Assembly: GCF_008831285.2 (NCBI RefSeq)
Contig: NC_045138.2
Location: forward strand, 33,265,934 to 33,329,933
Direction of reading: 5' to 3'
DNA: 64,000 nucleotides
DNA from: Nymphaea colorata
Taxonomy: Eukaryota > Streptophyta > Magnoliopsida > Nymphaeales > Nymphaeaceae
Below are positions 28,388 through 62,900 of the stretch, piece after piece. The notes under the pieces were generated by a model. It had not been told where the DNA came from, did no database searches, and was given only the letters and a program-made list of their open reading frames with translations. The first letter of the stretch is position 1, and every line of letters starts with the position of its first letter. Both the position numbers and the translations under genes were made by a program.

Positions 28388-28588
28388 GCTTACCTGAAAC
28401 GTATAGCCATTCTCTTTCACTGTTGCTTGCACCCAGCCCCTACCAGCTACCACTAGGCTACCTGACTCCACACTGCGCAACCCTATAAGGTACCATACCA
28501 GAATCCGACTCTCCAACATCCCTCTCTTCCTTTTCCCCATCTTCCCATTTCACTTCATTAGCTAGAGAGAGAGAGAGAAGGTTGCTTC

Positions 28589-40979: not shown

Positions 40980-41231
40980 TAGACGCAAATAAGGCATGTG
41001 CACTAAACACTAGACTCAAATGAACATCACAACTATGTAACAGAGATGATCACGTAGGAGCGACCAGACCAAATTGACGAAACAGGAACAGATCATATCC
41101 TGTATAATTTCTACTTATATTTTAACAAGGCACAGATTCTACAAACTTCAAAGTATACATTCACTAGTTTGCATGCACTACAACTTACTTTGATAGTATA
41201 AGAACCTAATCTTCCAAGAACATGGACATTT

Positions 41232-41237
41232 TTTATT
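41232..41237 (-). promoter_or_regulatory. Poly(A) signal of the left receptor kinase
   Basis: AATAAA on the minus strand, about 130 bases after the stop codon. A matching TTTATT occurs at 55120-55125 downstream of the right copy. Confidence 0.35.
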
Positions 41238-41369
41238 TACAGCATAATCTGTTTATATAATTACAACCCTGGCTAGGAAGTCTTTAAAAACGATGAGACA
41301 GAATCATCAGTACCACATAGTCAACAGGCTTTTAGCAACATGTGGGCCAGAGAGAAAATTGGATGCTGG

Positions 41370-43796
41370 TCATACTGAAAAGGAACTTTTAGCCTGACAA
41401 GTGCTCGAGTCTGTGGTCTGCAGTTTAGAACTTCTGTCAGATCCGTCAGAGAAGAAGACAATGTTTTCTTGGTGGCTCACGAGAACCTGAAGAGACCTCG
41501 GCACAGGTGGCTTGCCAAACTCCAAGAGTTTCTCAAAAACCTGAACTACTTGCCCCATAGAGGGCCTAGAATTCTCTTCATCCTGAATACACCATATAGC
41601 AATTCTACAAGCTATGGTGAGCTCTCCCACATCCGCTTCACCTCCCAATCTAGGATCAAGCAACGCAAACTCTTCGCTCTCAAGAATTTTGTTCGCAGCC
41701 CAAGTAGGAAAATACCCGACCTTCCCATCCTCAGAGTGCTCCACATTTCTCCTCCCTGAGATCAACTCTAACAGCATCATTCCATAGCTATAAACGTCAG
41801 CCTTAGCCGTAATTGGCAAACCGGAGAGCCATTCTGGTGCAAGGTAACCCCTTGTGCCTCTGAAAGTTGTCAAGACCCGGCTAAATTCTCGACCTAAGAG
41901 CTTGGCCAACCCAAAATCAGCGACCTTGGGGCAGAATTGAGCATCAAGAAGGATGTTTTCTGGCTTGATATCACAATGTATGATGCAGTCTCTACATTTT
42001 TCATGAAGGTAGCTTATTCCTCTTGCTGTCCCAACTGCAATTTCATATCTTGTTCTCCAATTTAGTGGTTCAGAATTGAAATTAAACAGATGGAAATCCA
42101 ATGATCCGTTCTGCATGAAATCATAAACAAGCAACCTTTTCATACCTTCTGAGCAAAACCCACGAAGGCGAACAAGATTGACATGTTGGATTGTCCCGAT
42201 TGTGCTGACCTCAGTTCTGAATTGCTTCTCCCCCTGCCTCGGGCCTTCTAGTTTCTTTACAGCAACAACTGATGAATCAGGCAGAGTTCCCTTGAAAACG
42301 GAGCCAAAACCGCCTCCTCCCAACTTATCTGAGAAATTTTTTGTCGCAGTTTGCAAATCTTTATATCTAAAAGATACTAGCATTCCCTGCATCTTTGAAT
42401 CCTGAGAGCTTGAGAGCTTTCTGAATATCCAAACCAACAACCAAATGATCACTAGAATAGCCAGAACACTGCCTACCGAGACTCCAATAATCACAGTAGC
42501 AGCATTTTTCTTATTAAGCACTCTGTCGAGCGTCTCCAAATTAGAAACACGAACATAAATACTGTTTTCATTACCAACAGACTGCTGCCGGAGATTCAGA
42601 AGGCCTCCTTTCCATATTAAGCACCCACTATTTTGATAAGAGTAGGCAGTACATGAACAATCTTCTAGGCAAGCTGATTTACAACCCTCGGCATTGTTCA
42701 CTCTCACTGTACTATTATTTGCAGGAGAGTTCAGCCCCGGTTGCAAGGAAAATTGATCTCTCTCACACTGCAATGCGACCTTTCTCCTGCAACCTCCAGA
42801 CCAATCCGACAATCCCCAGACTTGAGGAGATGCTGGTTCAAACCCGTCAACGCAATTGCAAGGATTCTGCTTATCCTGATCACAAACCCCAAAATCTCCA
42901 CAGAGACCATATACTTCACATTGATCTCTTGGCTGTGCCCAGAACACGATCCATTGTTGTGATTCTTCGACCCATGTCAATTGCTTGATCTGCCCAGATA
43001 GGTCTATGACAAACTTTGTCAAGATGCTGCTATTGTAGACCGAATACGTGAAGTATCTAGCTGTGTCATTTTCAACAAAGCTGAAATTATAGAGGTAGTT
43101 GGCTCTCATCTCTGGCACTCCACTGAAAGTTTGATTGTTCCAAACTCCGCTGGTCCAGTACTGCTGGGTCCTATTCCAAACTATAAAATATTGAGCAGAT
43201 CCATTTGGGTCGAGCTCTAGAGAGAATGGCCCAGGAGAGGGATCCTCTTTATTCTTCCACGAAGTAAGTAGTTGATTTTCATTTGTTACCTTATTAAGTC
43301 CCAGACTTCCACCAGGCAACCAAGTATGCGTCGGGTGACTGAAACTGTCCCACAATTTGTCAGAAGAATTAGCATCTCTCAGGACAAGATTACCACTGTC
43401 TTCAAGGACAACAATTCTTGAAGGTGAACTTGGAGTTGAAGTCACGTTCGTAGACCAAGAGATGACTTTTGATTGTGTCAGAAGGACCAAGTTGCCATCT
43501 TCTGAGATCTTGAACTCCGCTGTGTTGTCCTGGAGAGGTTTGTCTCTATTGGCTACCCACACCACGTTGTCGGTTGGAATTTGCTTGTACCGGATGCCCA
43601 GGTAGTATCTTTTTGGGTTGCCAAGGAAGACGTACCCCAACTCAAATACGCCTTTCGAGGAGGTAATTGTCTGGTTCCCCGTGAGAGCTTGGCCTGAAGA
43701 GATAGTGTTTGCTGCAAAAATTTGACTGCCGTAACAGCAGAAGAGCAGGGAACAAAGGAGAATTCTGAGCCATGGCAGCAACATCCAAGAACCCAT
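41370..43796 (-). CDS. G-type lectin S-receptor-like Ser/Thr kinase, SD2 type (left copy, 808 aa)
   Basis: Intronless. Signal peptide at residues 1-28; bulb-type lectin domain about 30-150 (VVWVANRDKPLQD, DGNLVLL); S-locus glycoprotein region about 190-300 with many N-glycosylation sites; EGF-like Cys cluster 293-320 (CEVYGLCGDFGVC); PAN domain about 340-418; membrane helix about 433-458; kinase about 488-760. The glycine loop is GGGGFGSV, the ATP lysine is K514 in VAVKK, the DFG is at 627-629 and the APE at 653-655. The catalytic loop is HCDIKPEN: Cys replaces Arg, so this is a non-RD kinase, a class common among immune receptors. Family members act at the plasma membrane in perception of microbial or self signals; the ligand here is unknown. 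Closest in layout to Arabidopsis At2g19130. Paralogue at 55226-57670. Confidence 0.95.
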   Translation of the reverse strand: MGSWMLLPWLRILLCSLLFCCYGSQIFAANTISSGQALTGNQTITSSKGVFELGYVFLGNPKRYYLGIRYKQIPTDNVVWVANRDKPLQDNTAEFKISEDGNLVLLTQSKVISWSTNVTSTPSSPSRIVVLEDSGNLVLRDANSSDKLWDSFSHPTHTWLPGGSLGLNKVTNENQLLTSWKNKEDPSPGPFSLELDPNGSAQYFIVWNRTQQYWTSGVWNNQTFSGVPEMRANYLYNFSFVENDTARYFTYSVYNSSILTKFVIDLSGQIKQLTWVEESQQWIVFWAQPRDQCEVYGLCGDFGVCDQDKQNPCNCVDGFEPASPQVWGLSDWSGGCRRKVALQCERDQFSLQPGLNSPANNSTVRVNNAEGCKSACLEDCSCTAYSYQNSGCLIWKGGLLNLRQQSVGNENSIYVRVSNLETLDRVLNKKNAATVIIGVSVGSVLAILVIIWLLVWIFRKLSSSQDSKMQGMLVSFRYKDLQTATKNFSDKLGGGGFGSVFKGTLPDSSVVAVKKLEGPRQGEKQFRTEVSTIGTIQHVNLVRLRGFCSEGMKRLLVYDFMQNGSLDFHLFNFNSEPLNWRTRYEIAVGTARGISYLHEKCRDCIIHCDIKPENILLDAQFCPKVADFGLAKLLGREFSRVLTTFRGTRGYLAPEWLSGLPITAKADVYSYGMMLLELISGRRNVEHSEDGKVGYFPTWAANKILESEEFALLDPRLGGEADVGELTIACRIAIWCIQDEENSRPSMGQVVQVFEKLLEFGKPPVPRSLQVLVSHQENIVFFSDGSDRSSKLQTTDSSTCQAKSSFSV

Positions 43797-44079
43797 TGGG
43801 CCTCCTCACGGTCTGCAAATGGTAACAGGTAGTGACCTCACAACACCGACTTAGTAGCCACCAAACCTGCATAACAACAGAGAGTTTACCATAGCAGTCT
43901 ATGAAATGGTCAGCAGGTAGGAGGAGGCCGTGGAAAAAGAAAGAGATTCCAAGAAATATCTTAATTCCAACAATGACCTCATAATTTCTATTTCTTTACA
44001 AGAATTGATCGTGTTCAATTCGGCCAAGTCCACTATCCATGCCCATTTGTCGGTTAGAAATAAACCAATCGCTGCACTT

Positions 44080-46820
44080 TCAGCCAAATCTGCTTGTAGA
44101 ATCGATTCTTTATCGGGTTCAATCTCATTTACTTGAGCCCTTCCATAACTTCACCCCATTCAAGTCAAATCTATTAGGCAACAAGGGTTGCATTCACTAG
44201 GACTTCCAACTTGAAACAGGTTACGAGTTCAGTAAACAGAAATGTTTCTCTCTTGACATAATCTAGTAAGGGAGTGTCTAACCTCAGATTGCCTAACATC
44301 CAAAAGAGATTGGCCAAAGCCAACTGCCACGGATTTGAGTGTCTGTAATGAACCACAAAACAAAAGTAATCTCGAGTTGCGTGTTGCAGACGTCTATAGG
44401 GCGATCACCAGTAGACCAATTATGGACAGGGGCAATAGGATAAGGCAGAGCATCATGGTTGGTGAGTGATTGAGGGTCGGAAGGACGAGAGATAACACGG
44501 TCGAAGTGGAGGAGGCAGCACCGCTTCCGGTTTTTCCGAATGGCCATCATCGACCAACAAGACCACCCTCAGGTGTGAGAAGGGGTCTGCCTTGTGGTGA
44601 ACAACAGTAGCCACGGTCGAGGGCCGAGGAAGAGGGGCCGAGAGGGCATTGGCCCTTGAGGCCAGAGTTGGAGCTGAGGGGCTGGCCAGGCCGTGGGACC
44701 TGTGGTGCCAGTGTCGACGCTGAGTCGAACTTAGGTCGGCAAGCTGGGAGTGCAGGACAGCCTCCCTGCCAATTCAAAGATTGTGCAGTCCAGAATGATG
44801 CCGATCGTTGCAGGAGCCTCCTACTTCTACGACAAGAGGTCAAAGGAAAGTGGGACACTCGGCAGCTTACCTGGCACGACCATAACCAGCCAGTGCAGAC
44901 GGAGCCAGAAATTTTACGGTCAGAGACGCCAATATAGTAAATAAAATAATCATAGATCACGCAAGAACAAAAAGCATTTAGTGCACGAGACACTGCTTTG
45001 CGTTGTTACAGACGCGAATTGAACTACACTCACCACCGATATAACCTTTAACCTCAAGCATTTGAATGGCCCCATAATCCATTTGCAACAGGTAGAATCA
45101 ACATGAAGGAAAACTAGAACAGCCGGAATGCCTTTCAAATTTGCAGTGCTTACCATGTCAAAGTTTACAGCTACAAGAAAAAAACAAAGTTTCGACACCG
45201 AAAATCCAGAATAGCTGCATGCTTTTAGTGTTCAAACTGGAGAACAAATCCAAGACATACAGTTTTGCATTCAAGTGGCATATATAGCCCAACTTTTAAG
45301 GGCATCAACACGCCTGAATGACCTTCACAGTCAAAAGAAGTAGTTCCCACCCATTATTTTATAAGAACTTTCTAGACCTCTAGTAAATAACACCTACACA
45401 AGCATCTAAAAAATAATATTTTTTACCATGTCTCTAGTGCTCATGCAAAAATTATTATAACAGAAAAATATCATCATCAATCTCACCAAGTAAATAACTA
45501 ATAACGGTAATTAGTTTTAAACGTAGACAGCATAAATGTCAAATTACCATTAAATCAAATTCTCCATGTTTCAATAAGAAGCCAATGACCATGATTAAAC
45601 GTTCTTCTAACCAGAACTTCCATCCGGTAGGTATGTTCAGAGACCAGGAAAGGTGTCTGTAAACAAATGCGTAAAATAATGGCGCGTACAGTTGAAAAAC
45701 AATTGAATGACACAAGCAAGAGCAAAAGTAGAACCACCAAAAAGTCCATAATAAATGAAGAAACACCCAAATAAAAGATCCTAAAATGGCCAACTTCCCC
45801 AAATCAAGAAGAAGAAGAAGAGACAGAGAAAGGTTACATGGGTAGGAGGTTGGCACCCATTTTATGGAATTTCAGGACTCCGACAGCGAATTGAGTGGTT
45901 CTCAAAGCGGATTATGTGCCAATTTTCATGAAATAGGAAAACTGAGATTCCTACAGGCCGGCTCGGAAATTTCAAGAGGAAGGGAGAGAGGCTCTCACAC
46001 GGCAGGCGTCAGGTGGCCAACGGTGGGATGTGGTTCATGGAGGAAAGGAGGGAGGGAGAGAGAGAGAGAGCGCGAGAGAGAGAGACTCACGTTGTGGCCG
46101 ACGGTGGGACTCCTCAAGCTCGTTGGGCAATGGCAGGACTCCTCAAGCTCGACACTTCATGGCGGTCTTGGGACGATGAAGCCGAATGAAGCAGTGGCGG
46201 AACTAAACGAAGCAGCGGAATTAAGCGGCGCCGGAACTAACCGAAGCAGCGGAATTAAGCGGCGCCGGAACTAACCGAAGCAGCGGAATTAAGCAGCGCC
46301 GGAACTAAACGAAGCAGCTTGGGGCCGGCTCTCGACCCAGGTTACAAGTCAAGCAAGTGCCAAAGAACAAGAGAGGCACAAGCAGCACGGGCTTTGACAT
46401 GCTGTCCATTCCCTCCATCTTTGGCCGCCAATTTTCAAGATTTTTATTTGGGAACGGACCAGAAGGCGAAGCCCCAAACTTTTTCTGTACAAGTCTACCT
46501 CAACACCGTCTTCTGTTTACACTTAACCGAGATCTAGTTTTGGGTAAAGTTCAGTTAAACTGATAAAGACCAAGACTTTTTGGCGGTGAAACTTGGCTAA
46601 CATAATTTGGCAACTGTGTTAGATCCTGGGACACTTATCACGCGGAATTATCGCGATGTAGGACCCTCTCCCCTTCGACTCACGTAGCTCCTGGAAGAAG
46701 CTCTCCCCAGACGATTTATTGTCTTGTCAGAAAGCAAGACTGAATTCCAACTTCCCAAGTGATTTATGTGGACATACGGGAGGAAGAACGCAAGAATGGG
46801 TAATCTGTCAATGGTTGATC
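44080..46820. other. About 2.7-kb block present only in the left duplication unit
   Basis: Sequences flanking this block (GGCCAAGTCCACTATCCATG near 44022, and CAGGTCAAGAGATATT near 46828) match points only about 30 bases apart in the right unit (near 57880 and 57951). The block is therefore an insertion in the left unit or a deletion from the right. It is GC-rich in places (44550-44900) and contains a (GA)n tract near 46045-46085 and a 34-bp minisatellite. I see no inverted repeats, LTRs or coding domain. Confidence 0.6.
46199..46318. repeat. 34-bp minisatellite, about 3.5 copies
   Basis: The unit is GGAACTAACCGAAGCAGCGG followed by AATTAAGCGGCGCC. It is repeated head to tail with one or two changes per copy. 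It follows a smaller duplication of GGACTCCTCAAGCTCG (about 46108 and 46136). Confidence 0.9.
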
Positions 46821-48509
46821 GCACGCAGGTCAAGAGATATTTTTTGCAAGGGAGAAATGTATGCCTTATAAAAATTGCGTGCCGTATGTGGTACTCTCTT
46901 TACAGGTCTTTAGGAACTGTTAGAGTCAGTCAGCCTATCAGCTTTTACTTAGTTCAAACCGGCTCACTTTAACTCAAGACAACCCATTGAACCAAATCAC
47001 CTGTTCTTTATAAATCATCATGACATCTTTAGATCTGACCAAGCTCACGCCATGATCGCCTTAGTGCAACCTAACTTAAATCTAAGTTACTTCGAGTTAC
47101 AGGATCCAGATTTTTCAATTCATTTTGGTAGCTTTCTTTCGCCTAGATGAAAACTACGTGTAAGTTTGCTTTTTCGAGCAGGCCTTTCCTGGTCTTGACA
47201 AAGGCATGACAAATGGAGAAAAATAAATTTAAAAAGGTCGCTTTATTCAAGGAAACATCGTGAGTTATCTCTCTTTTTATTTAATGCATTTCCATTTTGT
47301 CCGCACAAGTGGATGTCGCGGACAGGGCGTTCTGTAGCACAAAGGAACAGGATCTTGGCGTCTCTTGTTTTGCACCTCCTTCCACCTGCATGCCCCTCCG
47401 GGTAAGCACGCAGGTGTTCCTCACCAGCTTGAAGGATATCAATCAAACGTCATCTAAAGCCACAGTGATGACGACGTAAATAAAACATATTGGTCTCACA
47501 AAAATTCTTATTAACCGTGCACCTCTCATCTTCCACATTTAAGAGGACAAATAAATGAACATGAAACGGACATCTCCACCTGAGGTCATAATTTGCTGGA
47601 TGAACTACCAACAATTAATATATGATGGAAAGGTAGTTGAGATTGCACATCCTTCATAACTACAGCTGATTAAATTTGTAAGTTTGAGCATCCTATTTAG
47701 GACACAGCGCTTCAAATAGATCGGATCTAATTCAGGTTGAACCCGAGTCTAACCTTTAAGCAAAATGGGTCTCAGTTTACTAGCTTCTCCAGGAATGAGT
47801 CCAAAGAAAACGCTTTAAGCAACCATACTTTCAAACCTGGATGTGCACATTTTTTTTTGTATAAAATAAGGTATATTGAATCAACAAACTTTAAAAAAAA
47901 AAAGCCAGCGAGCTAAACAAAAACAGCTAAATAGGAATTTTTAAAACAAGTGATTTTTGTTTTTTTTAAAATATGATGCTATTCTTAAAATTGTTTCAGC
48001 CTTCAGAATCTGATATTTGTGAGGGTAGCCAACAACAGAAACGACACCTGGAAAACCTACCTAAGCGTGTCAAATCAAGGCCCAGTTCAACTACCATTCA
48101 AGTCCTGTGAATCTAGTTTAGCAGTTGATGGATTTCAAGTTAAAAATAAATTAAATTGGTTAAAGGGAAAGCATAACTGGAGTCATCTGTTGAAGTCCAA
48201 GTTATTTGTCAATTCAAGTAACATTGAAAATTCTTCGATTTACTGGTAGGTGCAAGGAGATGACGGTCTCGAGCGAAAGCGTTGTAATGTTCAATTGCCT
48301 TCAGGACACGACACTGAAGTCCTCCAATCAGAAACCTGAACAGTTCTTCATAGGGATGCAGAAATTGGGAACTTGCGGGCTTCGCTAGATTTTAGTTCAC
48401 AACTTTCTAACTTCCTTATATTACTTTATCAGTCAGAGAGCAGATATTCAAATAATGCCAACCTTTCAGCCATCCTGGATTCTAGACTTCTGGAGAACAA
48501 AACCAGTGA

Positions 48510-48776
48510 TCAACTTGGATCAACAGAATACATCCTACACCACACAAACTTCTTAATTTTCTTGTCAGACTCCTCTGAAATACTAAATCTTTCAGTGATG
48601 CAGACCATGCTTTTACAGCCCTCTTAACTCTCCAGATATATGTATCTGTTCATCAATCTCATAGGCCTTACGACATCTAAGACTGATTCAGATTTCCAAG
48701 TCACAGATAGGCCTAAGATTTCTCTTGAACCATTGCAGGAGAGGTCGCATCATTGGTCTTCTTTGCACACAAGTCC
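48510..48776 (-). pseudogene. Apollo last-exon relic, part cut off on the left of the Copia element
   Basis: The minus strand corresponds to the 3' half of the intact Apollo exon at 59979-60245. Shared runs include GACTGATTCAG, TTTCCAAG and ATAGGCCTAAG versus ACAGGCCCAAC. Insertions and deletions break the frame. Upstream matches to the Apollo 3' flank continue leftward to about 47000. It is joined to its other part (54044-54470) only if the retrotransposon is removed. Confidence 0.75.
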
Positions 48777-48781
48777 CAAGT
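48777..48781. repeat. Target-site duplication CAAGT, left copy
   Basis: CAAGT precedes the LTR start TGTTGGG and recurs at 54039-54043 after the last CCCAACA. The right duplication unit has a single CAAGT at the equivalent unoccupied point (about 60249-60253). Confidence 0.9.
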
Positions 48782-49399
48782 TGTTGGGATAAAATGGATT
48801 GGACACTAGTTTACTAAAATAATTCAACAACAAACTATAGCCCAATAGATCATGCAATAAACAACGAATCAACGACCAAGCACTCCAACCAAACGAATCA
48901 CAATCACAAACTGCACGAGAAATTTTTTACGTGAAAAAACCTCTCAAAACAATGAGGGTAAAAAACCACGGGGTACTACGACCCAAACTCAATCCACTAT
49001 AATCAATGATAGAAGTTATTCGACGAGGGGCTACAAAAAGCCAACCCTCAAACAATAATATCTCATCAAAACAATATAAGATAAACAAAGAGAATATCAC
49101 CGATGGAATGCAGAAATCGTGGATTGAGAGGAGATGCATCTAGCTTCCTCCTCGATATCAAATCTTGCTCAAGCCAAATGCTCGCACTCTTTTCTTCCTT
49201 GCCTTCCTCTTCTCCTTCTCTCCTCTTGTTGTGCAGCCACAAGATCTCCCCTTTCTTTTTTCCCCAAAAGAGAAAACCTAAGAGAGAGAGACGTGTGCAA
49301 GATGGGGGGGCACCATCAGGTGCCCTCCCTTTTCCTCTGCCCATCACTTAAGTGACGGGCCGGATCGGGTCCTCTCAGGAGGCTGGACCCGACCCAACA
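48782..49399 (-). repeat. 3' LTR of the Copia element
   Basis: 618 bp with TG...CA ends. It has a 17-base segment (around CACTCTTTTCTTCCTTG) and another near its right end that are absent from the other LTR. Confidence 0.93.
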
Positions 49400-49400
49400 A

Positions 49401-49416
49401 ACTCCTCCTCTAGCCT
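49401..49416 (-). promoter_or_regulatory. Polypurine tract of the Copia element
   Basis: On the minus strand the bases before the 3' LTR read GGCTAGAGGAGGAGTT, a purine-rich primer for plus-strand DNA synthesis. Confidence 0.7.
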
Positions 49417-49482
49417 CAAGTGAGGGAAAATACCTGCAAAATGAACAAAATTAATATACTGTCTTAAAGACAGTCATCTCAA

Positions 49483-52400
49483 CTAAGTCTCTACACATAT
49501 CATTTTCTTTTTAGGTAGAGACTTTGTCATCATATCTGCAGGATTATTATCTATTTGGATTTTATCAAGAACAAGCTGCTTCGACTCTAAAACATCACGT
49601 ATCCAATGATACCTCACGTCTATGTGCTTTGACCTTGCATGAAAAGCAGAATTCTTTCCAAGGTGAATAGCACTCTGACTGTCACAATAAAGCACATACT
49701 CGTCTTAACTAAACTTAAGTTCCTGCATGAACCTCTTCATCCATAGTAACTCCTTGCTTGCCTCTGTAGCTGCAATAAACTCTGCTTCAATAGTAGATAA
49801 TACTACATATTTTCGAAGACTGGATTGCCAAGAAACTGTACCACATGCATATGTCAATAAATATCCAGATATAGATCTTCTCCCATTAATGTCTCCTGTC
49901 ATGTCTGAATCTATATAGCTAACAAGAATGATTTTTTTACCCCAAAACAAAGTGAAAAACTGCTAGTCCCATGATGATATCTCAAAATTCATTTTACTGC
50001 TTCCCAGTGTTTATTTTCTGGATTTGAGACAAACCGACTAACAACTTCAACTGAATGAGCAATATCACGTATAATACATACCATAACATACATCAGACTA
50101 CTTGTGGTTGAGGCATAGAGAATCTTCTACATATCTTTCTTTTCTGAATCTGTCATTGAACTCTGCTTGGTGCTCAACTTGAAATGCACCGCAAGAGGGG
50201 TGGTAATAGGCTTTGCCTTGTCCATGTGAAATCTTTGAAGTACCTTCTCGATGTACTTCTCCTTAGATAGCCATAACTTCTTCGACTTTCTATCTCGCGT
50301 GATCTTCATACCCAAAATCTGACTAGCAGGTCCCAAGTCCTTCATAGCAAAAGATTTGCTCAACTCCTTTTTCAAGCTTGAAATTCTTGATATATTATTG
50401 CCAACAATAAGCATGTCATCAACATAAATCAACAAAATGACAAAATCATTACCTGAGAATTTCTTCATAAAGACGCAGTGATCTGAGGTAGTCTTAGTGT
50501 AGCCATACTCCCCCATAAATGACTCGAACTTCTTGTACCACTGCCTAGGTGCCTGCGTCAGACCATACAAACTTTTCTTTAATCTGTAAACATGGTTTTC
50601 TTTATCTTTCACAAGAAAACCTTCGAGCTGCATCATGTAAATTTCCTCATTAAGATCACCATGAAGAAAAGCTGACTTCACATCCATCTGCTCGATCTCC
50701 AAGTCAAGACTGGCTGCCAAACTGAGAACAATTTTGATAGACGACATCTTGACCACCAGTGAGAATATCTCGTCAAAGTCAACTCCCTTTTTCTGTTAAA
50801 CCCCTTCACAACCAACCTAGCTTTGTATCTTGGGTTTAGAGAGCTTTTATCATGCTTCACTCTAAAAACTCATTTGTTTCTCAATGCCCTCTTGCTTTGG
50901 GGCAACTCTACAAGCTCGAAAGTGTGGTTGTCGTAAAGTGACTGTATCTCATCTTTCATGGCTTCCATCCATTTTTCCTTGTGCACATAATGTATAGCTT
51001 CTTCATAGCATTCAGGCTCACCACTGTCAGTCAACAAAATATAGTCACGTACGAGATATCTAGTTGAGGGATGCCTCTCCCTCGTGGATCTCCGCTGCCG
51101 ATTTGCATCTGAGGAAAAACCATCCAAATTCTGATCGTGATCTGAATTAGGAATATCTGGCATGTTTATTTATCCTTCTCTATCATGTATCTGCCCAACA
51201 ACATCATCTGGCACTGTTTTTGGAGTATTCTGCAAGAGAATAGGTTCCACATCAACTAGCTAATAGCTACTATAAGAAAATCCTTTACTGCTTTCTGAAT
51301 ATTCTCAATATTCTGATCTTCAGCAAATACCACATTCCTGCTTCTGACAAGCTTCTTTTCAACTGGATCATACAATCTGTAACCAAATTCATCATGGCCG
51401 CAACCCAAAAACACGCACTGCCTGCTTTTTTATTCTAACTTCGAACTCTCATCCTTTGGTATATGCACAAATGTCTTGCATCCAAATACACGTAAGTGCT
51501 CATAGGATATATTCTTCCCATACCAAACTCTATTAGGAACATTACCATCCAAAGAAATATGTGGAGACAAGTTAATCACATAAGCAGCAGTATGTAAAGC
51601 TTCACACCAAAAAGAATAAGATAACTTAGCTTCAGATAGGAGACATCTAACTCTCTCCATGAGTGTCATGTTCATTCATTCTGTCACGCCATTCAACCGA
51701 GGAGTCTTAGGTGAAGTCTTTTGGTGTCTGATGTCATGAGATCTGTAATACTCATCAAATGGACCAATATACTCTCCCTCATTATCGCTGCGAACACACT
51801 TCAGCTTCTTTCATAACTGTCTTTCAACCAGTGCATGAAAGTCCTTCAAAATACCAAGGACTTGGTCTTTCCTCTTCAAAGAATAGACCCAAAATTTTTT
51901 AGAAAAATCATCAATAAACGTGACAAAATAAAGTGCACCACCATGTGAACTTACTTTCATATGACCACATACATCTGTATGAACCAACTCAACTGCTTCT
52001 GACTTTCTGGAAGGTGGATGACTCTTGAAAGAGACTCGCGTTTGCTTCCCTGTAAAACAATGACTGCATTTATCAAGTTCATCCTTCTTTACATCTAGGA
52101 GAAGATTCTTCTTGATCAAGAACTGCAGTCCCTTGTCACTCATATGTTCCAACCTCTTATGCCACAACTCAATAGATTTCTCATCTTGTGTCATATGCAC
52201 AATGTCTTTGAAAATCGATGCCTGCATAGTAAAAAGATTATTGCTGCATTTCTTGCCTCGAGCAATAATCAAGGAACCTCCGGTAATCTTCCATTGGCCA
52301 TCACCAAAAGTATTGTGGTACCCTTCTTCATCGAGTCTTCCTGCAGAGATAAGGTTCAGATGCATGTCTCACTTCTGTCAACTTCAATAGGGCTCCATTT

Positions 52401-53435
52401 GCATTCTTCAGAATAACGTCGCCTCTGCCTATAACCTGAGACAAAGAACCATTATCCATTTTCAAAGTGCCAAAATCACCAGACATATATGAAGAGAAAA
52501 AATCCTTATGAGAAGTAACATGAAGAGCTGAACCACTATCAACAAGCCAACAAGTATCATATCTGGCAATATTAACCATGTCAGCATCACAAACCATGAA
52601 CATTTCATGTTGTGCAGCAATTGTGACATTATCATCTCGGTCATTTTTCTTCTCTTGTTTCTCTCCAATTCTAACTCATTCTTCAGTTGAAAGCAATACT
52701 TCCTTATGTGCCCTTTCTTTCTATAGTGGTGACATTCCAAATTCTTATATTTGGATCAGGACTTGCTTCTGTTTTTATCTCTGCTCCTGTCACTCTTGAA
52801 TTTACTCCTCCCCTTGTTCTTTGTGAAAAGAACCTCTGTCTAAGAAGAACAGACCTGAGATTTTCTTCTCATCTCCTCATTGAGAATACCCGACTTAACA
52901 ATCTCTAAAGAAACAACCACATTAGCTGCAGAATTAGTAAGCGAAACTCTAAATATCTCCCACGAATCAGGCAAAGTAGCAAGCAATAATAATCCCACAA
53001 TCTCATCTTCAAATTTAACACCCATACTGAATAACTGACTGGTGATCCCCTGAAAATCATTTAGAAAATCTGACATTGAACTGCCCTCTCTGAATATCAA
53101 ATTCATCAATCTTTTCAGAAGAAATAGTTTACTACTTCCTGTCTTGGAGGCATAAAGATTTTCTAATTTTATCCACAACTACATGCATGATTTTCATCTT
53201 GGATATGGTTGTAAACATTTTCATCCACAAATTGTCGAATGAAACCACAAACTTGTTCATGTTCAAATTCTCATTCCTCATCAGACTCAAAATTGGGCTT
53301 TTCTTTGGAAAAAACTGGAAGGTGCATAGCCTTCACATATAAGAAATCTTTCATCTTATTTTTCCATAGACTATAATTAGTCTCATTTAGGTTAATCATA
53401 CTGCTAGTACCAAAATCAATTTTGTTATCCACCAT
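49483..53435 (-). pseudogene. Decayed Copia gag-pol polyprotein
   Basis: The gag start codon is at 53435 and the first segment contains [13 protein letters not shown], typical of Copia gag, before an in-frame TGA. A UBN2-like gag block (LKRLMNLIFREGSSMSDFLN) is at about 53178-52840. The zinc knuckle reads CHHYRKKGHIRKYC, where the second Cys is Tyr. The protease motif is DSGSALHVTS. Integrase fragments span 52365-51430 (HKRLEHMSDKGL; HTDVCGH). Reverse transcriptase is at 50860-50127 with the catalytic YVDDMLIVG. RNase H is at 49950-49483 (SYIDSDMTGD; YCDSQSAIHLGKN; SKHIDVRYHWIRD). Several frameshifts and stops separate these, so no functional polyprotein can be made. Confidence 0.93.
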
Positions 53436-53452
53436 GTTGGCTCTCATACCAC
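53436..53452 (-). promoter_or_regulatory. Primer binding site (initiator tRNA-Met type)
   Basis: Just inside the 5' LTR the minus strand reads AAGTGGTATGAGAGCC. It matches the usual TGGTATCAGAGC initiator-Met site with one change. Confidence 0.85.
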
Positions 53453-53454
53453 TT

Positions 53455-54038
53455 TGTTGGGATAAAATGGATTGGACACTAGTCTACTAAAATAATTCAA
53501 CAACAAACTATAGCCCAATAGATCATGCAATAAGCAACGAATCAATGACCAAACACTCCAACCAAACGAATCACAATGCATGAGAAATTTTTTACGTAGA
53601 AAAACCCCTCAAAACAATGAGGGTAAAAAACCACGGGGTACTACAACCCAAACTCAATCCACTATAATCAATGATAGAAGTTGTCCCACGAGGAGCTACA
53701 CATAGCCAACCCTCAAACAATAATATCTCATCAAAACAATATGAGATAAACAAACAGAATATCACCGATGGAATGCAGAAATCATGGATTGGGAGGAGAT
53801 GCGTCTGGCTTCTTCCTCGATATCAAATCTTGCTTAAGCCAAATGCTCGCAGCCTTCCTCTTCTCCTTCTCTCCTCTTGTTGTGCAGCCACAAGATCTCC
53901 CCTTTCTTTTTTCCCCAAAAGAGAAAACCTAAGAGATAGAGACATGTGAGAGATGGGGGGCCACCATCGAGTGCCCTCCCTTTTTCTCCGCTGACGGGCT
54001 GGATCGGGTCCTCTCAGGAGGCTGGACCCGACCCAACA
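53455..54038 (-). repeat. 5' LTR of the Copia element
   Basis: 584 bp with TG...CA ends. It is the promoter-bearing LTR relative to the minus-strand coding direction. Confidence 0.93.
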
Positions 54039-54043
54039 CAAGT

Positions 54044-54470
54044 AACGGGGTGGGTTGATTACAACAAAAAACTGAAAAGATGCCACTCATCCTGAAAGAA
54101 TTGTCAAACTCGAGAAACAATTCATCCCTTCCAAGCATGAATGCTCCCAGTAGGAGACAGCAAGAATATACTGGTGCAACTTTCTTGGGGAATTGTATGC
54201 TTCACTTGTGTGGCCAGTTTCAGCGTAGATTTTATTGTTTTCCTTCTATCATGGCATCCATTAACTGCTCAAGCCTTTTTTGCTCAATTGATTTTTTTCC
54301 GACGGGAAAACTTTAGGCAACGTCCATTAGTGGTTCCAACCGTGTTTAAAGGCTCAAATGTTATATTTTAAAGAGGGACAACTCTCACACGAGTAAGGCA
54401 AATTTTCATAGTGAAGGAATCCTTGAAGGTGCATCAATCGTAACCGTTTAGTCCTTATCTTTCATTTTTC
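54044..54470 (-). pseudogene. Apollo last-exon relic, part right of the Copia element
   Basis: Minus-strand similarity to the intact exon at 60695-60255 is clear, for example GCTGAAACTGGCCACACAAG and GCTGTCTCCTACTGGGAGCA. Frameshifts and stops prevent reading through. Homology to the Apollo intron continues to about 54850. It derives from the tandem duplication, not from retroposition, because flanking intron sequence is included. Confidence 0.85.
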
Positions 54471-55225
54471 AAGGAGCAATACTAATGCTCAATCTTCAGT
54501 CCAAAAGGCAGGAAGAGAGGACAACAGAAAATATCAGACGACAATATCCAACTGTTCAGGAAGAAAAGACTGTCAGACATTGTGCCTGTGAATGAACTGC
54601 ATATAACCAATTTAGTGATAAAATGTTATACAAAAAACAGAACGAACTCGGATACATTAGAGAAGCCAGATAAGCAAGAGATTGGTAGTCCAGTCGAATG
54701 CTCTGAGATGGGGTAACTGACGCAAAATCCATAGTGTAAAAACCAGCCCTTATTTCGGGGCAACACCAAACAACTGAATGTGGAACTTCCTGATTGAAAG
54801 ACGATCTGTGAATGGAACTCTGCAACTTTGAAAGCACCCAGTTGTTATGGAGAAGAGGCAAGTAATGCATGGGCAATACCCACTAGATTCAAATGAGTGT
54901 CACAACCACGCAACCAAGATCACCATGTAGGAGTCGAGCACACAAAATTCACAAGATAGCAATAGACCATATATTGTCTAATAATTAACTTCCATTTATA
55001 TTTTAACACAAAGCACGGATTCTTCAATATATAAACTCAAATGTTTGTATATAGTTCTACTAGTATAAGAATCTACAACAACGTGAAGCTTTTTTTCTTT
55101 TTTTTTTTAGCATAATCTATTTATTAGAATCCATGGTAAAAGGGAAATCATTAATAATGATGAGACACAATCATCAGTACCGCTACCACACAATTGAAAG
55201 CATGTCGACTAAAGTTGGTGGGTGG

Positions 55226-57670
55226 TCATACTGAATTGACCGATGAGCTTTGAGCATGAGAAGTGCTTGAATTAATGGTCTGCGGTTTAGAACTTCTGTC
55301 AGAACCTTCAGAGAAGAAGACAATGTTTTCATGATGGTCGACAAGAACCTGAAGAGACCTCGGCACAGGCGGCTTGCCAAACTCCAAGAGTTTCTCAAAA
55401 ACCTGAACTACTTGCCCCATGGAGGGCCTAGAATTCTCTTCATCCTGAATACACCATATAGCAACTCTACAAGCTATGGTGAGCTCTCCTAAATCGGCTT
55501 CACCTTCCAATCTAGGATCAAGCAACTCAAACTCTTCGCCCTCAAGAATCTTGTTCGCAGCCCAAGTAGGAAAATACCCGACCTTCCCATCCTCAGAGTG
55601 CTCCACATTTCTTCTCCCTGAGATCAATTCTAACAGCATCATTCCATAGCTATAAACGTCGGCCTTAGTCGTAATTGGCAAACCGGAGAGCCATTCTGGT
55701 GCAAGGTAACCCCTTGTGCCTCTGAAAGTTGTCAAGACCCGGCTAAATTCTCGACCTAAGAGCTTGGCCAACCCAAAATCAGCGACCTTGGGGCAGAATT
55801 GAGCATCAAGGAGGATGTTTTCTGGCTTGATATCACAATGTATGATGCAGTCTCTACATTTTTCATGAAGGTAACTTATTCCTCTTGCTGTCCCAACAGC
55901 AATTTCATATCTTGTTCTCCAATTCAGTGGTTCAGAATTGAAATTAAACAGATGGAAATCCAATGATCCGCTCTGCATGAAATCATAAACAAGCAACCTT
56001 TTCATACCTTCTGAGCAAAACCCACGAAGGCGAACGAGATTGACATGTTGGATTGTCCCGAGTGTGCTGACCTCAGTTCTGAATTGCTTCTCCCCTTGCC
56101 TCGGGCCTTCTAGTTTCTTTACAGCAACAATTGATGAATCAGGCAGAGTTCCCTTGAAAACGGAGCCAAAACCGCCTCCTCCCAACTTATCTGAGAAATT
56201 TTTTGTCGCAGTTTGCAAATCTTTATATCTAAAAGATACTAGCATTCCCTGCATCTTTGAATCCTGAGAGCTTGAGAGCTTTCTGAATATCCAAACCAAC
56301 AACCAAATGATCACTAGAATAGCCAGAACATTGCCTACCGAGACTCCAATAATCACAGTAGCAGCATTTTTCTTATTAAGCCCTCTGTCCAGCGTCTCCA
56401 AATTAGAAACACGAACATAAATACTGTTTTCATTACCAACAGACTGCTGCCGGAGATTCAGAAGGTCTCCTTTCCATATTAAGCACCCACTCTTTTGATA
56501 AGAGTAGGCAGTACATGAACAATCTTCTTGGCAAGCTGATTTACAACTCTCGGCATTGCTCACTCTCACTGTACTAGAATTTACAGAAGAGTTCAGCCCC
56601 GGTTGCAAGGAAAATTGATCTCTCTCACACTGCAATGCGAACTTTCTCCTGCAACCTTCAGACCAATCCGACAATCCCCAGTCTTGAGGAGATGCTGGTT
56701 CAAACCCGTCAATGCAATTACAAGGATTCTGCTTATCCTGATCACAAACCCCAAAATCTCCACAGAGACCATATACTTCACATTGCTCTTTTGGTTGTGC
56801 CCATATTGCGATCCACTGTTGTACTTCTTTGCTCCATGTCAATTGCATGATCCGCCCAGAGGGGCCTATCACAAACTTTGTCACGATGCTGCTATTGACC
56901 CAGTACGTGAAGTATTGACCTTTGTCGTTTGAAACAAAGCTGAAATTGTAGATATATTTGACTGCCATTTCAGTCACCCCAGTGAAAGACTGATTGTTCC
57001 AACGTCCAGTCGTCCAGTATTTTTGGGTCCTATTCCAGAACAAGAAATATTGGGAAGCTCCATCCCGATCAAGCTCTAGAGAGAACGGTCCAGGAGAGGG
57101 ATCCTTTTCATTTTTCCACGAAATGAGCATTTGATACTCGTTTGTTACCTTATTTAGTCCCAGACTTCCACCAGGCAACCAAGTATGCGTCGGGTGACCG
57201 AAACTGTCCCACACAATATTGTTAGAAGAATTAGCATCTCTCAGGACAAGATTACCACTGTCTTCAAGGACAACAATTCTTGAAGGTGAACTTGGAGTTG
57301 AAGTCACGTTCGTAGACCAAGAGATGACTTTTGATTGTGTCAGAAGGACCAAGTTGCCATCTTCTGAGATCTTGAACTCCGCTGTGTTGTCCTGGAGAGG
57401 ATTGTCTCTATTGGCTACCCACACCACGTTGTCGGTTGGAATTTGCTTGTACCAGATGCCCAGGTAGTATCTTTTTGGGTTGCCAAGGACGAAGTACCCC
57501 AACTCAAATATGCCACCGGAGGAAGCAATTTTCTGGTTCCCCGTGAGAGCTTGGCCTGGAGAGATGGTGTTTGCTGCAAAAGTTGGACCTTGGTAGCAGT
57601 AGATAAGTAGAGGCCACAATAGCAGAATACGAGAACCCATAGCCCCACCCCAAACCAACACCGCCTCCAA
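55226..57670 (-). CDS. G-type lectin S-receptor-like Ser/Thr kinase, SD2 type (right copy, 814 aa)
   Basis: Intronless paralogue of the gene at 41370-43796 with the same domain order. The frame opens at 57670, but Met11 (57640, MGSRILLLW) aligns with the start of the left copy and begins a normal signal peptide, so it is the likelier start. The kinase half keeps all motifs, including the non-RD HCDIKPEN loop, and differs from the left copy at few positions, silent sites included. The ectodomain between about residues 170 and 300 differs at many positions (GRWNNQSFTGVTEMAVKYIY against GVWNNQTFSGVPEMRANYLY), and the C-terminal tails differ too. The gene lies about 2.3 kb downstream of Apollo on the same strand. 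Distinct ligand range is an inference from the divergent ectodomain. Confidence 0.95.
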   Translation of the reverse strand: MEAVLVWGGAMGSRILLLWPLLIYCYQGPTFAANTISPGQALTGNQKIASSGGIFELGYFVLGNPKRYYLGIWYKQIPTDNVVWVANRDNPLQDNTAEFKISEDGNLVLLTQSKVISWSTNVTSTPSSPSRIVVLEDSGNLVLRDANSSNNIVWDSFGHPTHTWLPGGSLGLNKVTNEYQMLISWKNEKDPSPGPFSLELDRDGASQYFLFWNRTQKYWTTGRWNNQSFTGVTEMAVKYIYNFSFVSNDKGQYFTYWVNSSIVTKFVIGPSGRIMQLTWSKEVQQWIAIWAQPKEQCEVYGLCGDFGVCDQDKQNPCNCIDGFEPASPQDWGLSDWSEGCRRKFALQCERDQFSLQPGLNSSVNSSTVRVSNAESCKSACQEDCSCTAYSYQKSGCLIWKGDLLNLRQQSVGNENSIYVRVSNLETLDRGLNKKNAATVIIGVSVGNVLAILVIIWLLVWIFRKLSSSQDSKMQGMLVSFRYKDLQTATKNFSDKLGGGGFGSVFKGTLPDSSIVAVKKLEGPRQGEKQFRTEVSTLGTIQHVNLVRLRGFCSEGMKRLLVYDFMQSGSLDFHLFNFNSEPLNWRTRYEIAVGTARGISYLHEKCRDCIIHCDIKPENILLDAQFCPKVADFGLAKLLGREFSRVLTTFRGTRGYLAPEWLSGLPITTKADVYSYGMMLLELISGRRNVEHSEDGKVGYFPTWAANKILEGEEFELLDPRLEGEADLGELTIACRVAIWCIQDEENSRPSMGQVVQVFEKLLEFGKPPVPRSLQVLVDHHENIVFFSEGSDRSSKPQTINSSTSHAQSSSVNSV

Positions 57671-59978
57671 GTAGCAAATAGGTAGTTATCTCTGTATCCA
57701 GACTTAGTGGACAGCAAACTCCAACTATCAGAGGGTTTCTCACAAAAGAGTAGGAGTTGCTCAACAGGAGGGGAGGTTGGCAAAAAGCAAGAAGTACAAG
57801 GAATGAGTTCCACCTGATTTCAGTAGTGCCCCAAATTCTATATCTTGGCGACAATGTACTGCTATCAGTTTGGTCAAGTCTACTACCCGCAACCCACGCC
57901 CGTTGATCAATCTTTTGTTAAGTCCCAAGTCGACTAATGTTACAAATTGCAGGTCAAGTGATATTCTTTTGGAAAGAGAAGTGACTACATCAAAATTGCC
58001 TGGCGTAAGGGTAATACGGTACCTTGTGGGGCCAGTACCTCAATGAAATCCGATACTGAGCAATCAAAGGCTTTGGTATGTGTCGCTCCTCGGTCTCCTC
58101 GTACGTCATCTGCCGTCCATAAAAAGGAGTTATAAATTTTCCATTGATAAACATTTATTTATGCCGCGTATCATTATTCGTGGCTTTTATTGTGGGATGC
58201 TTGACTCAATTACGTAATTTTCTTCTAATTAAATTGGCTAGATCCGTAAAAAATTAAAATGTATGTGTTAAGACGTTCAAAAGCAGGCTGTCCCAGTTTT
58301 CGTACAAATGGTAATGAAAATAATAAATCTAAAAGGTTGTTTGATTCCACGGAACAGAAACGGACGACCTAGGACACAGTCTTCTCTTCCACAGTTCCAC
58401 TGTCCCACCACCGTTTGAGTGGAGGTTGCCTGCAAGGCGTTGTGTAGGACAAAGGAACGCGATATTCGCCTCTTGTTTTTCACCCCAACCCTATGTAAGC
58501 TCGTAGGTGTAAGGTGAGTATTCCTCAACCTCACCTTGGATGATGCCAATCAACGTCAAACTAAAGACGGAACAAAGATAAGGTCAATAAATAGCATAGT
58601 TGTAAGAAACTTTTGTTCACCACCTCTCGTCTCACATTTAAGATGACAACTTATTGAACATAATACTGACGTCTCCGTTTGAGGTCATAATTGCTCTGGA
58701 TCGATAACGAATAACGTCAGTCATCAGCATATGTTGAAACATAGTTGAGATTGCACATCCTACACTAACTACAGTAACTAAATTTGCAGGATCGGACATC
58801 CAATTTAGGATATGGCACTTAAAATAGAGCGGATCTAATCCAAATTGAACCCAAATAAAAAATTTACGTAACATCGGCCCCTTTGAGTAACTTTTCAATG
58901 TCTTGGAATAAAGTAGGACCGTCAAATGAAGGTAGCGTCCCTCATATTTGTCTAACTGTGTTCGGAAAAGAGAAAAAAGACAGATTGCTTAGAAAGCCCT
59001 TATGGCCAACACATAATGGTCTATTTGGTGGTTCATGTGAGACAAACGGGGACACAGGCCAATGGACTGGAGAATACATACGAACAACAGGTGCCCAAAG
59101 ATCTAGAAGTTTAAAGGAACCACACTTGCGGACCTGGATGTTCACTGTTCAGTCTCCTTATAATATATATTACATTAAAAAACAAGAAAAAAGGGCCGCG
59201 AGTTATCCGAAACAGCTAAATAGGCATACGAATTTTTAAAACAAGTGAATTTTGGAAATATCATGCTATGCATGAAACTGACTCAGCCTATGGATAATTG
59301 CGACGCAGGTTCAGTCGAACATATGAACCAGAAACTAGAGCTGGAAAACCTAACCGAGCCTGCCAATCAAAAGTCAGGTTCATCTACCGCTCATCTCATG
59401 TCTCGTCAATCGTGCTTAGCAGTTGATAGATTCCAAGTTACTAAAAAATAAATTAAAATGGTGACTGGGAATTTAGTGTTGGACTTACTTGTTGAAGTCC
59501 AAGTTATTTGTCAATGAAGCACATGTGAACTCGTCGATCTGCACTTCTATACGAGGCAGTAGAAGTTACCGGTAAGTGCAAGAAGACGACAATCTTGAGC
59601 AAAGCATTGTTCTGTTTCAAGCATTCAGGACACGAGTCAACTTCTTTAGTAATTAGTGAGGAACATGCCCAACATGCAGAACCCAAGCTTCTATAAACTG
59701 CATGACCAACTACTCAATCTTTCACAATTTGAGTCACTGCGATGGAGCTCAACATCATCGTGCCATGTTGCAAGACGATAGAAGCTCAGGTCCTCCAATC
59801 AGCAACCTCAGCTCTTCATAGGGCTGCAGAAGTTGAGAATTTGCGGCTTCACCAGATTTTAGTCCATGAGTTTCGTCTGTTACCTCATCAATCAGAGAGA
59901 AGAAATTCAAATAGTGCCAACGTTTCACCAGTCACCTGGCTTTTAAACTTCTATGCACAGGTTAGAGACCAGGTTGTA
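57671..59978. other. Spacer between the right kinase and Apollo
   Basis: This contains the promoter side of the kinase and the 3' flank of Apollo. It matches 43800-44070 and 46820-48500 of the left unit in order, with substitutions and indels. No additional gene is seen. Confidence 0.6.
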
Positions 59979-62900
59979 TCAATAGAAGTTATCATTGTGG
60001 TCAATCTTCACACCACGCACTCTTCTTCTTATTTTGCTTATCATGCTCCTCTGGACACCCAATACTTTTGGTGAGTCGGCCCTTAGTTTACATCCCTTCA
60101 GTAGTCCAGATATGTTTATCTGTTTATCAATTCCGAAGGCCTTATCGCACTCTAAGACTGATTCAGCTTTCCAAGCCACAGACAGGCCCAACTTTCCCCT
60201 TGAATCTTTGCAACAGAGGTTGTCTGACTCGTCTTTGCACAGATGATCCAAGTAATGGCGTGGGTTGATGCAACAGAAAGCTGAGGAAACGATGCCACTT
60301 ATCCTGGAAGGATTGACATACTTAAGGAACTCTTCAATCTCTTTGAAGCATGAATGCTCTGAGTAGGAGACAGCAAACATATGCTGGTGCAACTTTCTTG
60401 GCGATTTAAATATTTCACTTGAGTGGCCAGTTTCAGCAAAGATATCACTGCCTTCCTTGCATAATGATACGCATGAATAGCTCAAGCTTTTTTGGTCTAA
60501 GAATTTTTTTCCCCATGGAAGACCTGTAGGTAGTATTGCGATAGTGGGCCGCACTGTGTTCAAAGACTCGATGGTTTCAAATGTCAGACTGTAACGAGGG
60601 ACAGCTCTCACACGAGTAAGGCAAGTTTTTGTAGTGAAAGCATCCTCGAAACCTAGAAGGTGCATCACTCGCAAACGTTCAGGCCATACCCATATCTGTG
60701 ATTTTTCAGAAAATGCATGTTTTCAGTCCAACGGCAGGAAAGTAAAGGACTAGAGACACCGAAAGATAACAATATGCAACTGTTTACAACTGGAAGGACA
60801 GGCTGCACCAGACATTGTGCCCACAAATAAACTGTACAAATCAATTTAATGATACATACAATGGCGATCAACCCAGATATGTTAGAAAAACCAGACAAGC
60901 AGGAGAATCGTAGGTGAGTTGCATTAAGTGGGATGCAGTAACTGAGACAGAATTCAAAAGGGCAATAAGTAGACTCTACTTTAGGACAGATCAAACAAGC
61001 AAGACAACCTCAGACCCCTATGAGCAGCAATCAAGCTTATGATGGCAGAACTTTCCCATTTCCAAACAATTGATGTGTAACTTCCTGACCCAAAGATGGT
61101 TCCTGAATAGAACAACTTTGAAAATTGAAATTACCCAGTAGTTCTAGAGGAGAGTTTGGGCTTATTTGTGAAGTGATCCGCGTGGGGAAAAAATGTATAT
61201 GCATTCAGGGGAGAATGGAAACCAACCTTTGTGTTTAGCATCTGCGAGATGTGAAGCAGCAGGTCCTCTTTACCAAGATTATCAACACCAATGACAAAAT
61301 CATGATGAGGGTGGGACGTCATGATATCAACTACCTGTTGATCACCAGAGACCAAACCACCATACACATGGATTATCCATCGAAAGATAAATTTATCAGC
61401 AGTTTGCAATTAGCAAAAATGTGTTCACCATCCTGTCATGCATTATACAGATAATTTCAGGAACATAAAGTATCAAAAGCAAACAAAACAAAATTATCTG
61501 TGACAGGCAAAGCTAATCGTTTTGAATTGTGAAGTAAAAAGTGATATTTTGATTAAATAACCAAGGCAGAAATATAACATATACCAACGGAACCATTAGA
61601 AAGACAAGACCTTGATTTGACAAGTGCTCCATGAGTTCATCTGGGGATGACAAACACTCATAGGCATGGGCAATAAGTAGGAAGCGAGGTTTTTACAAGC
61701 ACATGAAGCAACAATTTTTCAAGTGAATATCGAAACTTCTTTTTTCTGCTATTACATGGGAAGAATTTGATCACAAGAAACCTGTTGTAGGAGAAGACAC
61801 TAAACAAAATATACGCAACTCACCAAAAAAGAAATCATGTTATAACTCAATGACTTAGTCAAATTTTCCAATAGCACAACGTTTAGACTTCACCTCTTGT
61901 AAACTTTCTTTACAATGATAAACAAAATAAGGCAAGTTTTTTTTCTAATAGTAATAGTCATCTTGGGATGCAACTTCCACATTGACAAAATATCAATCCA
62001 AATTATCTGTGCTCTTAGTAATCTTATCAGCCGATGTAGGAATGCAACCGTATATCAAATCACTAAAGAATAAGAAAAGAACAGTAAAGAATATTTTGTT
62101 CACATTAAGCAATCAAATATATTATTATCTTCAAAAGCATGTCAGATTCTATGAAGTATGATCGCACCTGCTGAGCTGCAACTTTACGAGGGGGAAATGA
62201 AAATGATGGATTGCAATAAGTATTATCCATGTAAAGAAGATCCAGTTTCTTATCACCAAGGGCATTAAGGAGAATATTTTTCCCTTCAACAGCCTTCATA
62301 TCTCCGATCTCCCAACGAAAATCACCAGTGTATAGCACAGAACCAAATTGTCCACGAAACAAATACATTAGAGCACCTGCATAATCCAGAAATTATGCAA
62401 AGAAAATACAGTTACATGTTTAACAAAATAAACAACAGCTGTTTTCAGACGTAACACAAAGATCAAACCCTACATAAGACCAACCAGGGTACAAACATAA
62501 CTTCATATATGAAAAAGAGAAAAAGAAATGGATGGATGCTCGAGCCTATGCATCCTTCAAAGCTGCTTCGTAAACCTAACGCTTCTGAACATGACAAATG
62601 AAGCTTCATATGGAAGCAGCAAAACTTCCAAAATCAAAGAACGATGACCACTATAGAAGGAACCACACTTTCTGACGTAAAATACACACATGAACATGTC
62701 TCTCTACACAGATTCACATGAACGAGCGTATGCACACTGCTCACACCACAAAGACAAGCGTATATATGCGCCCACACGTGTACACAGAGAGATCGCATGA
62801 ACATTACTTTAATTGGTAAAATTATGACATTTTTTATTAAGTTAAATGCATTATCCCACGCGAACTTCTACCAATTCCCAAGCGGTAAAATTTCAAGTGA

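Follow-up and report, generated by a model that had tools for sequence, protein, structure and literature searches.

Old tandem duplication and later, probably conversion-driven, homogenisation of two non-RD receptor kinase genes in Nymphaea colorata

A tandem pair of receptor kinase genes in Nymphaea colorata consists of blocks of sharply different synonymous divergence. The pair very probably arose by an old tandem duplication, after which gene conversion homogenised a stretch of the lectin region and the part running from the EGF/PAN region through the transmembrane (TM) segment and the kinase. We analysed a window of 64,000 nucleotides (NC_045138.2, positions 33,265,934 to 33,329,933), and all positions below refer to it. 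The locus carries its own clocks, namely old flanks, an LTR insertion later than the duplication, and a decayed neighbouring gene, so that conversion can be distinguished from a recent duplication in a single haplotype.

Results

Architecture of the two kinase genes

Copy A (41370–43796, minus strand) and copy B (55226–57640, minus strand) were each found as a single open reading frame, encoding 808 and 804 amino acids, respectively, and were annotated from the ORF list and Pfam. Both proteins are receptor kinases of the G-type-lectin/S-domain kind and contain, in common order, the Pfam domains B_lectin, S_locus_glycop, PAN, and kinase; in A, the B_lectin match covers residues 77–180 and the S-locus domain residues 213–321. 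A signal peptide and a TM segment were recognised by eye in A, and the same architecture was seen in B. The translations of both genes contain the catalytic loop IIHCDIKPEN, in which HCD replaces HRD, and both kinases are therefore non-RD, as originally predicted; the class is defined by an uncharged residue in place of the arginine before the catalytic aspartate (available part of PMC9486079). Both proteins are probably functional. An Rfam search of the DNA at gathering cutoffs gave 0 matches.

The duplication is old

Comparison by blastn delimited two duplication units, unit 1 (40981–54857), which has been enlarged by later insertions, and unit 2 (54854–61154), with the junction at about 54855. 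Outside the genes the units match piecewise, and the aligned flank segments are 60–74% identical. The K2P distances of the non-coding flanks were 0.33–0.59 on both sides of the genes in 7/7 segments alignable by blastn; these values cover the alignable segments only, with gapped sites excluded and about 2.8 kb upstream of A lying outside.

Unit 1 alone contains a copia LTR retrotransposon (48782–54038, minus strand), bounded by LTRs at 48782–49399 and 53455–54038 and by a 5-bp target site duplication (CAAGT). Its RVT_2, copia gag, and gag_pre-integrs domains scored above cutoff and the integrase domain (rve) below it. The two LTRs have 33 substitutions over 584 aligned sites (26 transitions and 7 transversions; K2P 0.059). 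Unit 2 is unbroken across the corresponding point, and the insertion is therefore later than the duplication.

The duplicated unit also includes the 3′ portion of a DNA-repair gene of the DRMBL family, which we take to be SNM1/Apollo-like. Pieces of this DRMBL/metallo-beta-lactamase gene lie at 59979–63918 (minus strand), partly within unit 2, with PF07522 above cutoff in 59982–60722 and Lactamase_B_2 below cutoff in 63544–63918. The copy in unit 1 is a 5′-truncated pseudogene (48619–54449, minus strand; tblastn pieces 54449–54039, 48779–48675, and 48681–48619) that carries stops as well as a frame change and is interrupted by the copia element.

The identity of A and B over aligned coding sites (92.6%) might suggest that the tandem duplication was recent and that the S-locus block, signal peptide, and tail diverged rapidly afterwards. 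In that case synonymous and non-coding sites would not be expected to be old as well, yet they are, in the divergent parts and in both flanks. Together, the old flanks, the copia insertion that postdates the duplication, and the decay of the duplicated DRMBL piece exclude a recent duplication, and we regard this reading as virtually untenable.

Upstream of A, a stretch of about 2.8 kb (44040–46825) has no blastn counterpart upstream of B (57888–57949), so that the upstream regions differ grossly. An inverted-repeat search in this stretch returned two imperfect pairs, one of 21 nt and one of 14 nt, both short and neither of them terminal, and 4.3 copies of a 34-bp unit are arrayed in tandem at 46173–46318 within it. 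Elsewhere in the window, a 46-bp unit forms a tandem array in two runs at 15117–15957 (10.7 and 6.7 copies; 94% and 93% matches), and an ORF at 28562–29173 matches the plant transcription factor family NOZZLE (22.0 bits against a Pfam cutoff of 21.3).

Synonymous divergence forms a mosaic

Synonymous divergence (Ks) between A and B was calculated by NG86 in 40-codon windows, and blocks were segmented on per-codon synonymous differences using BIC; the comparison is one of two sequences without an outgroup, and 10 gapped alignment columns were excluded from every Ks and Ka count. Uniform divergence had been named beforehand as the outcome that would speak against a conversion mosaic, and none of the sliding-window Ks, the block BIC, or the permutations showed it. 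Ks was 0 in four windows spanning codons 61 to 160, 0.2–1.3 in the windows from 141 to 320, and 0–0.14 in those from 301 to 760, rising to 0.22 at 741–780; the first window gave 0.52 and the last two 0.37–0.43. Five blocks fitted better (BIC 356.5) than one (417.1) or seven (361.5): codons 1–48 (Ks 0.533), 49–167 (Ks 0; 0 of 81.5 synonymous sites differ), 168–289 (the S-locus block; Ks 0.668, Ka 0.165, Ka/Ks 0.25), 290–772 (EGF/PAN through kinase; Ks 0.052), and the tail, 773–811 (Ks 0.551). The range and maximum of a 100-codon scan were matched by 0/20000 permutations of synonymous sites, and the longest stretch free of synonymous change, 118 codons, by 9/20000. The near-identity claimed in the original prediction from the PAN/membrane region through the kinase, third codon positions included, thus appears as the low-Ks block 290–772, and the lectin pair that it had offered as an example is 97% identical (43357–43656 against 57219–57518).

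A GENECONV-like maximal-segment test on all coding sites (2000 permutations) recovered a long tract at codons 293–773 (A, 41481–42923; B, 55343–56785; both minus strand), which comprises the end of the S-locus domain, EGF/PAN, TM, and kinase and is also delimited by the synonymous block test. It is 1442 nt long with 40 mismatches and was matched in 0/2000 permutations, as was the divergent block at codons 173–292. The lectin tract (codons 57–145; A, 43362–43628; B, 57224–57490; both minus strand), with 266 nt and 2 mismatches, was matched in 67/2000 and is weak alone; the broader synonymous block 49–167 that contains it corresponds to 43299–43652 in A and 57158–57514 in B. Protein constraint also influences this test, which draws on every coding site and makes the synonymous test the cleaner of the two. 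The marginal result for the lectin tract, in which exchange and protein constraint are not separated, is one point that speaks against the conversion reading.

The S-locus block itself (codons 168–289) lies at 42933–43298 in A and 56795–57157 in B (minus strand). The start of the long tract falls within the Pfam S-locus domain, so that only about the first two-thirds of the domain is divergent; the divergent block also includes the end of the B_lectin match. Divergence of the S-locus part, signal peptides, tails, and flanks had been anticipated, and it was found in all of them, limited in the S-locus domain to this portion.

Purifying selection acts on the intracellular part (Ka/Ks 0.18), as would fit strong constraint on synonymous sites of the lectin, PAN, and kinase regions without any exchange. 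The opposite of the pattern expected from constraint was observed in the EGF/PAN stretch at codons 315–423 (A, 42531–42857, minus strand; B, 56393–56719), with 0 synonymous and 13 non-synonymous differences, and the block boundaries fall within domains. This explanation is therefore extremely improbable. An assembly artefact, that is, a collapse or chimera of copies or haplotypes, has to be considered because near-identical tandem copies are hard to assemble and the locus was judged from the assembly, not from reads. Against it, A and B still differ at 40 of the 1442 nt in the long tract, and read confusion would not readily merge copies that differ by at least 30%; we consider an artefact very unlikely.

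Timing and number of events

Within the long homogenised block, codons 522–772 are more diverged than codons 290–521 (14/164 against 2/155 synonymous sites, p = 0.0035; 95% confidence interval for 290–521, 0–0.035), which suggests more than one conversion event, of different ages, although the BIC did not call for a further block. Compared with the copia LTRs, codons 49–167 and 290–521 have fewer changes (p = 0.025 and 0.019); codons 522–772 (p = 0.20) and, considered separately, 290–430 (p = 0.30) show no such deficit and hence no sign of being younger than the insertion, all p values being uncorrected over five comparisons. LTRs may mutate faster than genes, which would weaken this clock, and the main timing argument is the contrast with the flanks. 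GC3 was not raised in the tracts, and GC-biased conversion was for that reason not invoked.

The S-locus block was probably retained

The S-locus block has the same synonymous divergence as the gene ends, signal peptide plus tail (32/72 against 21/55, p = 0.59), and as the 5′ flank (p = 0.50), and a higher one than the 3′ flank (p = 0.018). With a Ks like that of the unconverted ends and a Ka/Ks of 0.25, the block has most simply escaped conversion, and it looks unconverted rather than accelerated. The original prediction had allowed that this segment either stayed or became different; the first alternative fits these values and the second does not. Positive selection on the block as an average was rejected, its Ka/Ks not exceeding 1, although an average can hide single sites. 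Selection that keeps the block different is possible, and a single locus cannot show it.

Homogenisation of the signalling and lectin parts was likewise as predicted. A neat division in which recognition was kept apart did not hold, as the lectin region, PAN, and the segment equivalent to HV III of Brassica SRK all lie within homogenised tracts.

An alternative history would have one long conversion from lectin to kinase, after which one copy received a new S-locus block from a third and more distant paralogue. The Ks values of codons 49–167 and 290–521 are indistinguishable (0/82 against 2/155, p = 0.55), as they would be after one event, and the excess over the 3′ flank points in the same direction. 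Within the block, the positions at which only A matches SRK8 or SRK9 of Brassica number 8 and those at which only B does number 2; A also has the higher Pfam S-locus score (119.1, against 104.9 for B). This 8 to 2 split has a two-sided binomial P of only about 0.11 (calculated by hand), tblastn found no further kinase copy in the 64-kb window, and the agreement of the block with the gene ends and the 5′ flank makes a third donor unneeded. Import from a third paralogue is thus doubtful as an account of the block, and retention of the old divergence is the reading carried forward here.

Mapping on Brassica SRK

The closest solved structures to the B ectodomain were those of SRK8 and SRK9 (PDB 6kyw and 5gyy; E values of 7.2e-78 and 5.8e-74), which have the same domain order as A and B. 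An AlphaFold2 run on the B ectodomain, with A as the single other row, reached a mean pLDDT of 34.1, and the model was discarded. Brassica SRK is a self-incompatibility receptor with a linked ligand gene, and A and B are likened to it by receptor sequence alone.

Eleven SRK8 residues are named in SP11 recognition in the available part of PMC7530648; they form an incomplete contact list, and the ligand of A or B may not be SP11-like. A and B differ at the positions equivalent to five of the 11 (219, 271, 275, 277, and 297; hypergeometric P 0.019 over the ectodomain) and have identical residues at those equivalent to the other six (293, 301, 303, 304, 337, and 339). Within the unconverted block, 4 of 5 named residues differ, against 36 of 121 block positions (P 0.027). 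The HV III residues 337 and 339 (codons 332 and 334) fall in the homogenised tract and are identical, with differences at the nearby codons 327 and 335. On this mapping, the named HV I residue and the beginning of HV II fall within the divergent block, which corresponds to only part of the surface used by SRK.

Amino acid changes in the homogenised ectodomain

The homogenised ectodomain (codons 49–167 and 290–430) has 2 synonymous and 26 non-synonymous differences, against 14 and 9 in the homogenised intracellular part (p = 5e-5; 2:16 against 14:9 for the cores, p = 0.0015). This contrast is strong, but constraint on the kinase would also yield it. Against a neutral expectation at kappa 2.2, the ectodomain excess (2 of 28 synonymous) had P 0.010; the value was 0.10 for the tract cores (2/18), 0.15 for codons 87–145 plus 293–430 (2/16), and 0.11 for codons 290–430 (2/18). 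Fisher tests of the non-synonymous excess gave p = 0.06 for all differences and 0.39 for the cores. For codons 315–423, a stretch picked post hoc, 0 of 13 synonymous corresponds to a neutral P of 0.018 at kappa 2.2.

After homogenisation, the HV III-equivalent segment and the PAN domain gained mostly amino acid changes, which is suggestive of re-divergence and not significant with the tract edges trimmed. The excess may represent adaptive re-divergence, or relaxed constraint combined with tract edges. At codons 56, 69, 86, and 317 of the tracts, B is the only copy that agrees with both SRK8 and SRK9, and at codons 359 and 378 A is; at lectin codons 69 and 86, A has R and K, and B and both SRKs have W and N.

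Discussion

Architecture, the order of duplication and insertion, and block structure are established, and conversion is the mechanism of homogenisation that best explains the block Ks, the old flanks, the copia element, and the DRMBL remnant, as the original prediction had proposed. An ancestral unit of about 6.3 kb, with a receptor kinase gene and the 3′ part of the DRMBL gene, would have been duplicated in tandem long ago. The extra DRMBL piece would then have decayed and received the copia element. At a later time the kinase copies, which are 13.9 kb apart today, would have undergone ectopic gene conversion or a double exchange with the same effect. The copies would thereby have been made alike from EGF/PAN through TM to the kinase and over a shorter stretch of the lectin region, and the old divergence would have persisted in the signal peptide, in the S-locus domain over its first two-thirds, in the tail, and in the flanks. 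What results would be a pair of intact receptors whose kinases are almost alike and under purifying selection, and whose ectodomains differ in the middle.

A more elaborate model holds that conversion repeatedly installs one signalling module while the outer surfaces are kept apart and re-diversified, with two ligands feeding a common output. It would build on the amino acid changes gained since conversion at the homogenised EGF/PAN and lectin edges and on the differences at 5 of the 11 SP11-related positions. We consider it rather improbable. If the re-divergence of the ectodomain holds in relatives, the pair would provide a small, testable case of tandem receptors that share a kinase while their outer parts diversify.

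A pattern scan for the B protein in viral and genome contig collections gave 2 and 19 matches, none encoding a relative. At2g19130 is a probable relative, and the clade of OsSIK2 is probably the nearest. Members of the G-LecRK-I clade, or clade B1, which includes At2g19130 and rice OsSIK2, have the G-type lectin, S-locus, PAN, and kinase domains seen in A and B, and OsSIK2 is described as a salt and drought gene (available part of PMC5889549). Rice Pi-d2 is, like A and B, a B-lectin, non-RD receptor kinase and has a resistance function; it differs from them in being single-copy, and the term 'gene conversion' is absent from the main text of PMC9486079. The available part of that paper lists XA21 and FLS2 together with Pi-d2 among non-RD kinases, and a possible immune role for A and B is one of association only.

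The literature on conversion and on this gene family supplies precedents, none of them tied to this locus. In the OAK/At5g59670 tandem cluster of Arabidopsis, conversion produced an identical fragment of 2.7 kb, which starts shortly ahead of the start codon and ends 60 bp inside the coding sequence of the kinase (available part of PMC3136440). The OAK ectodomain is of the Malectin-like/LRR type, unlike that of A and B, in which the kinase was converted and part of the ectodomain was not. Rice gene families were reported to contain 377 conversion events with a mean length of 130 nt and a maximum of 1237 nt (available part of PMC2277409). In peanut, a genome-wide GENECONV survey of receptor-like-kinase tandem clusters, which required at least three genes per cluster, found significant conversion in 19 of 52, with tracts of 16–1771 bp (available part of PMC8215822). 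Both tracts described here (266 and 1442 nt) are within the peanut range, and the longer one exceeds the rice maximum. Conversion between tandem receptor kinases is thus already known, and the Nymphaea pair is a clear example of this process in a receptor-kinase cluster.
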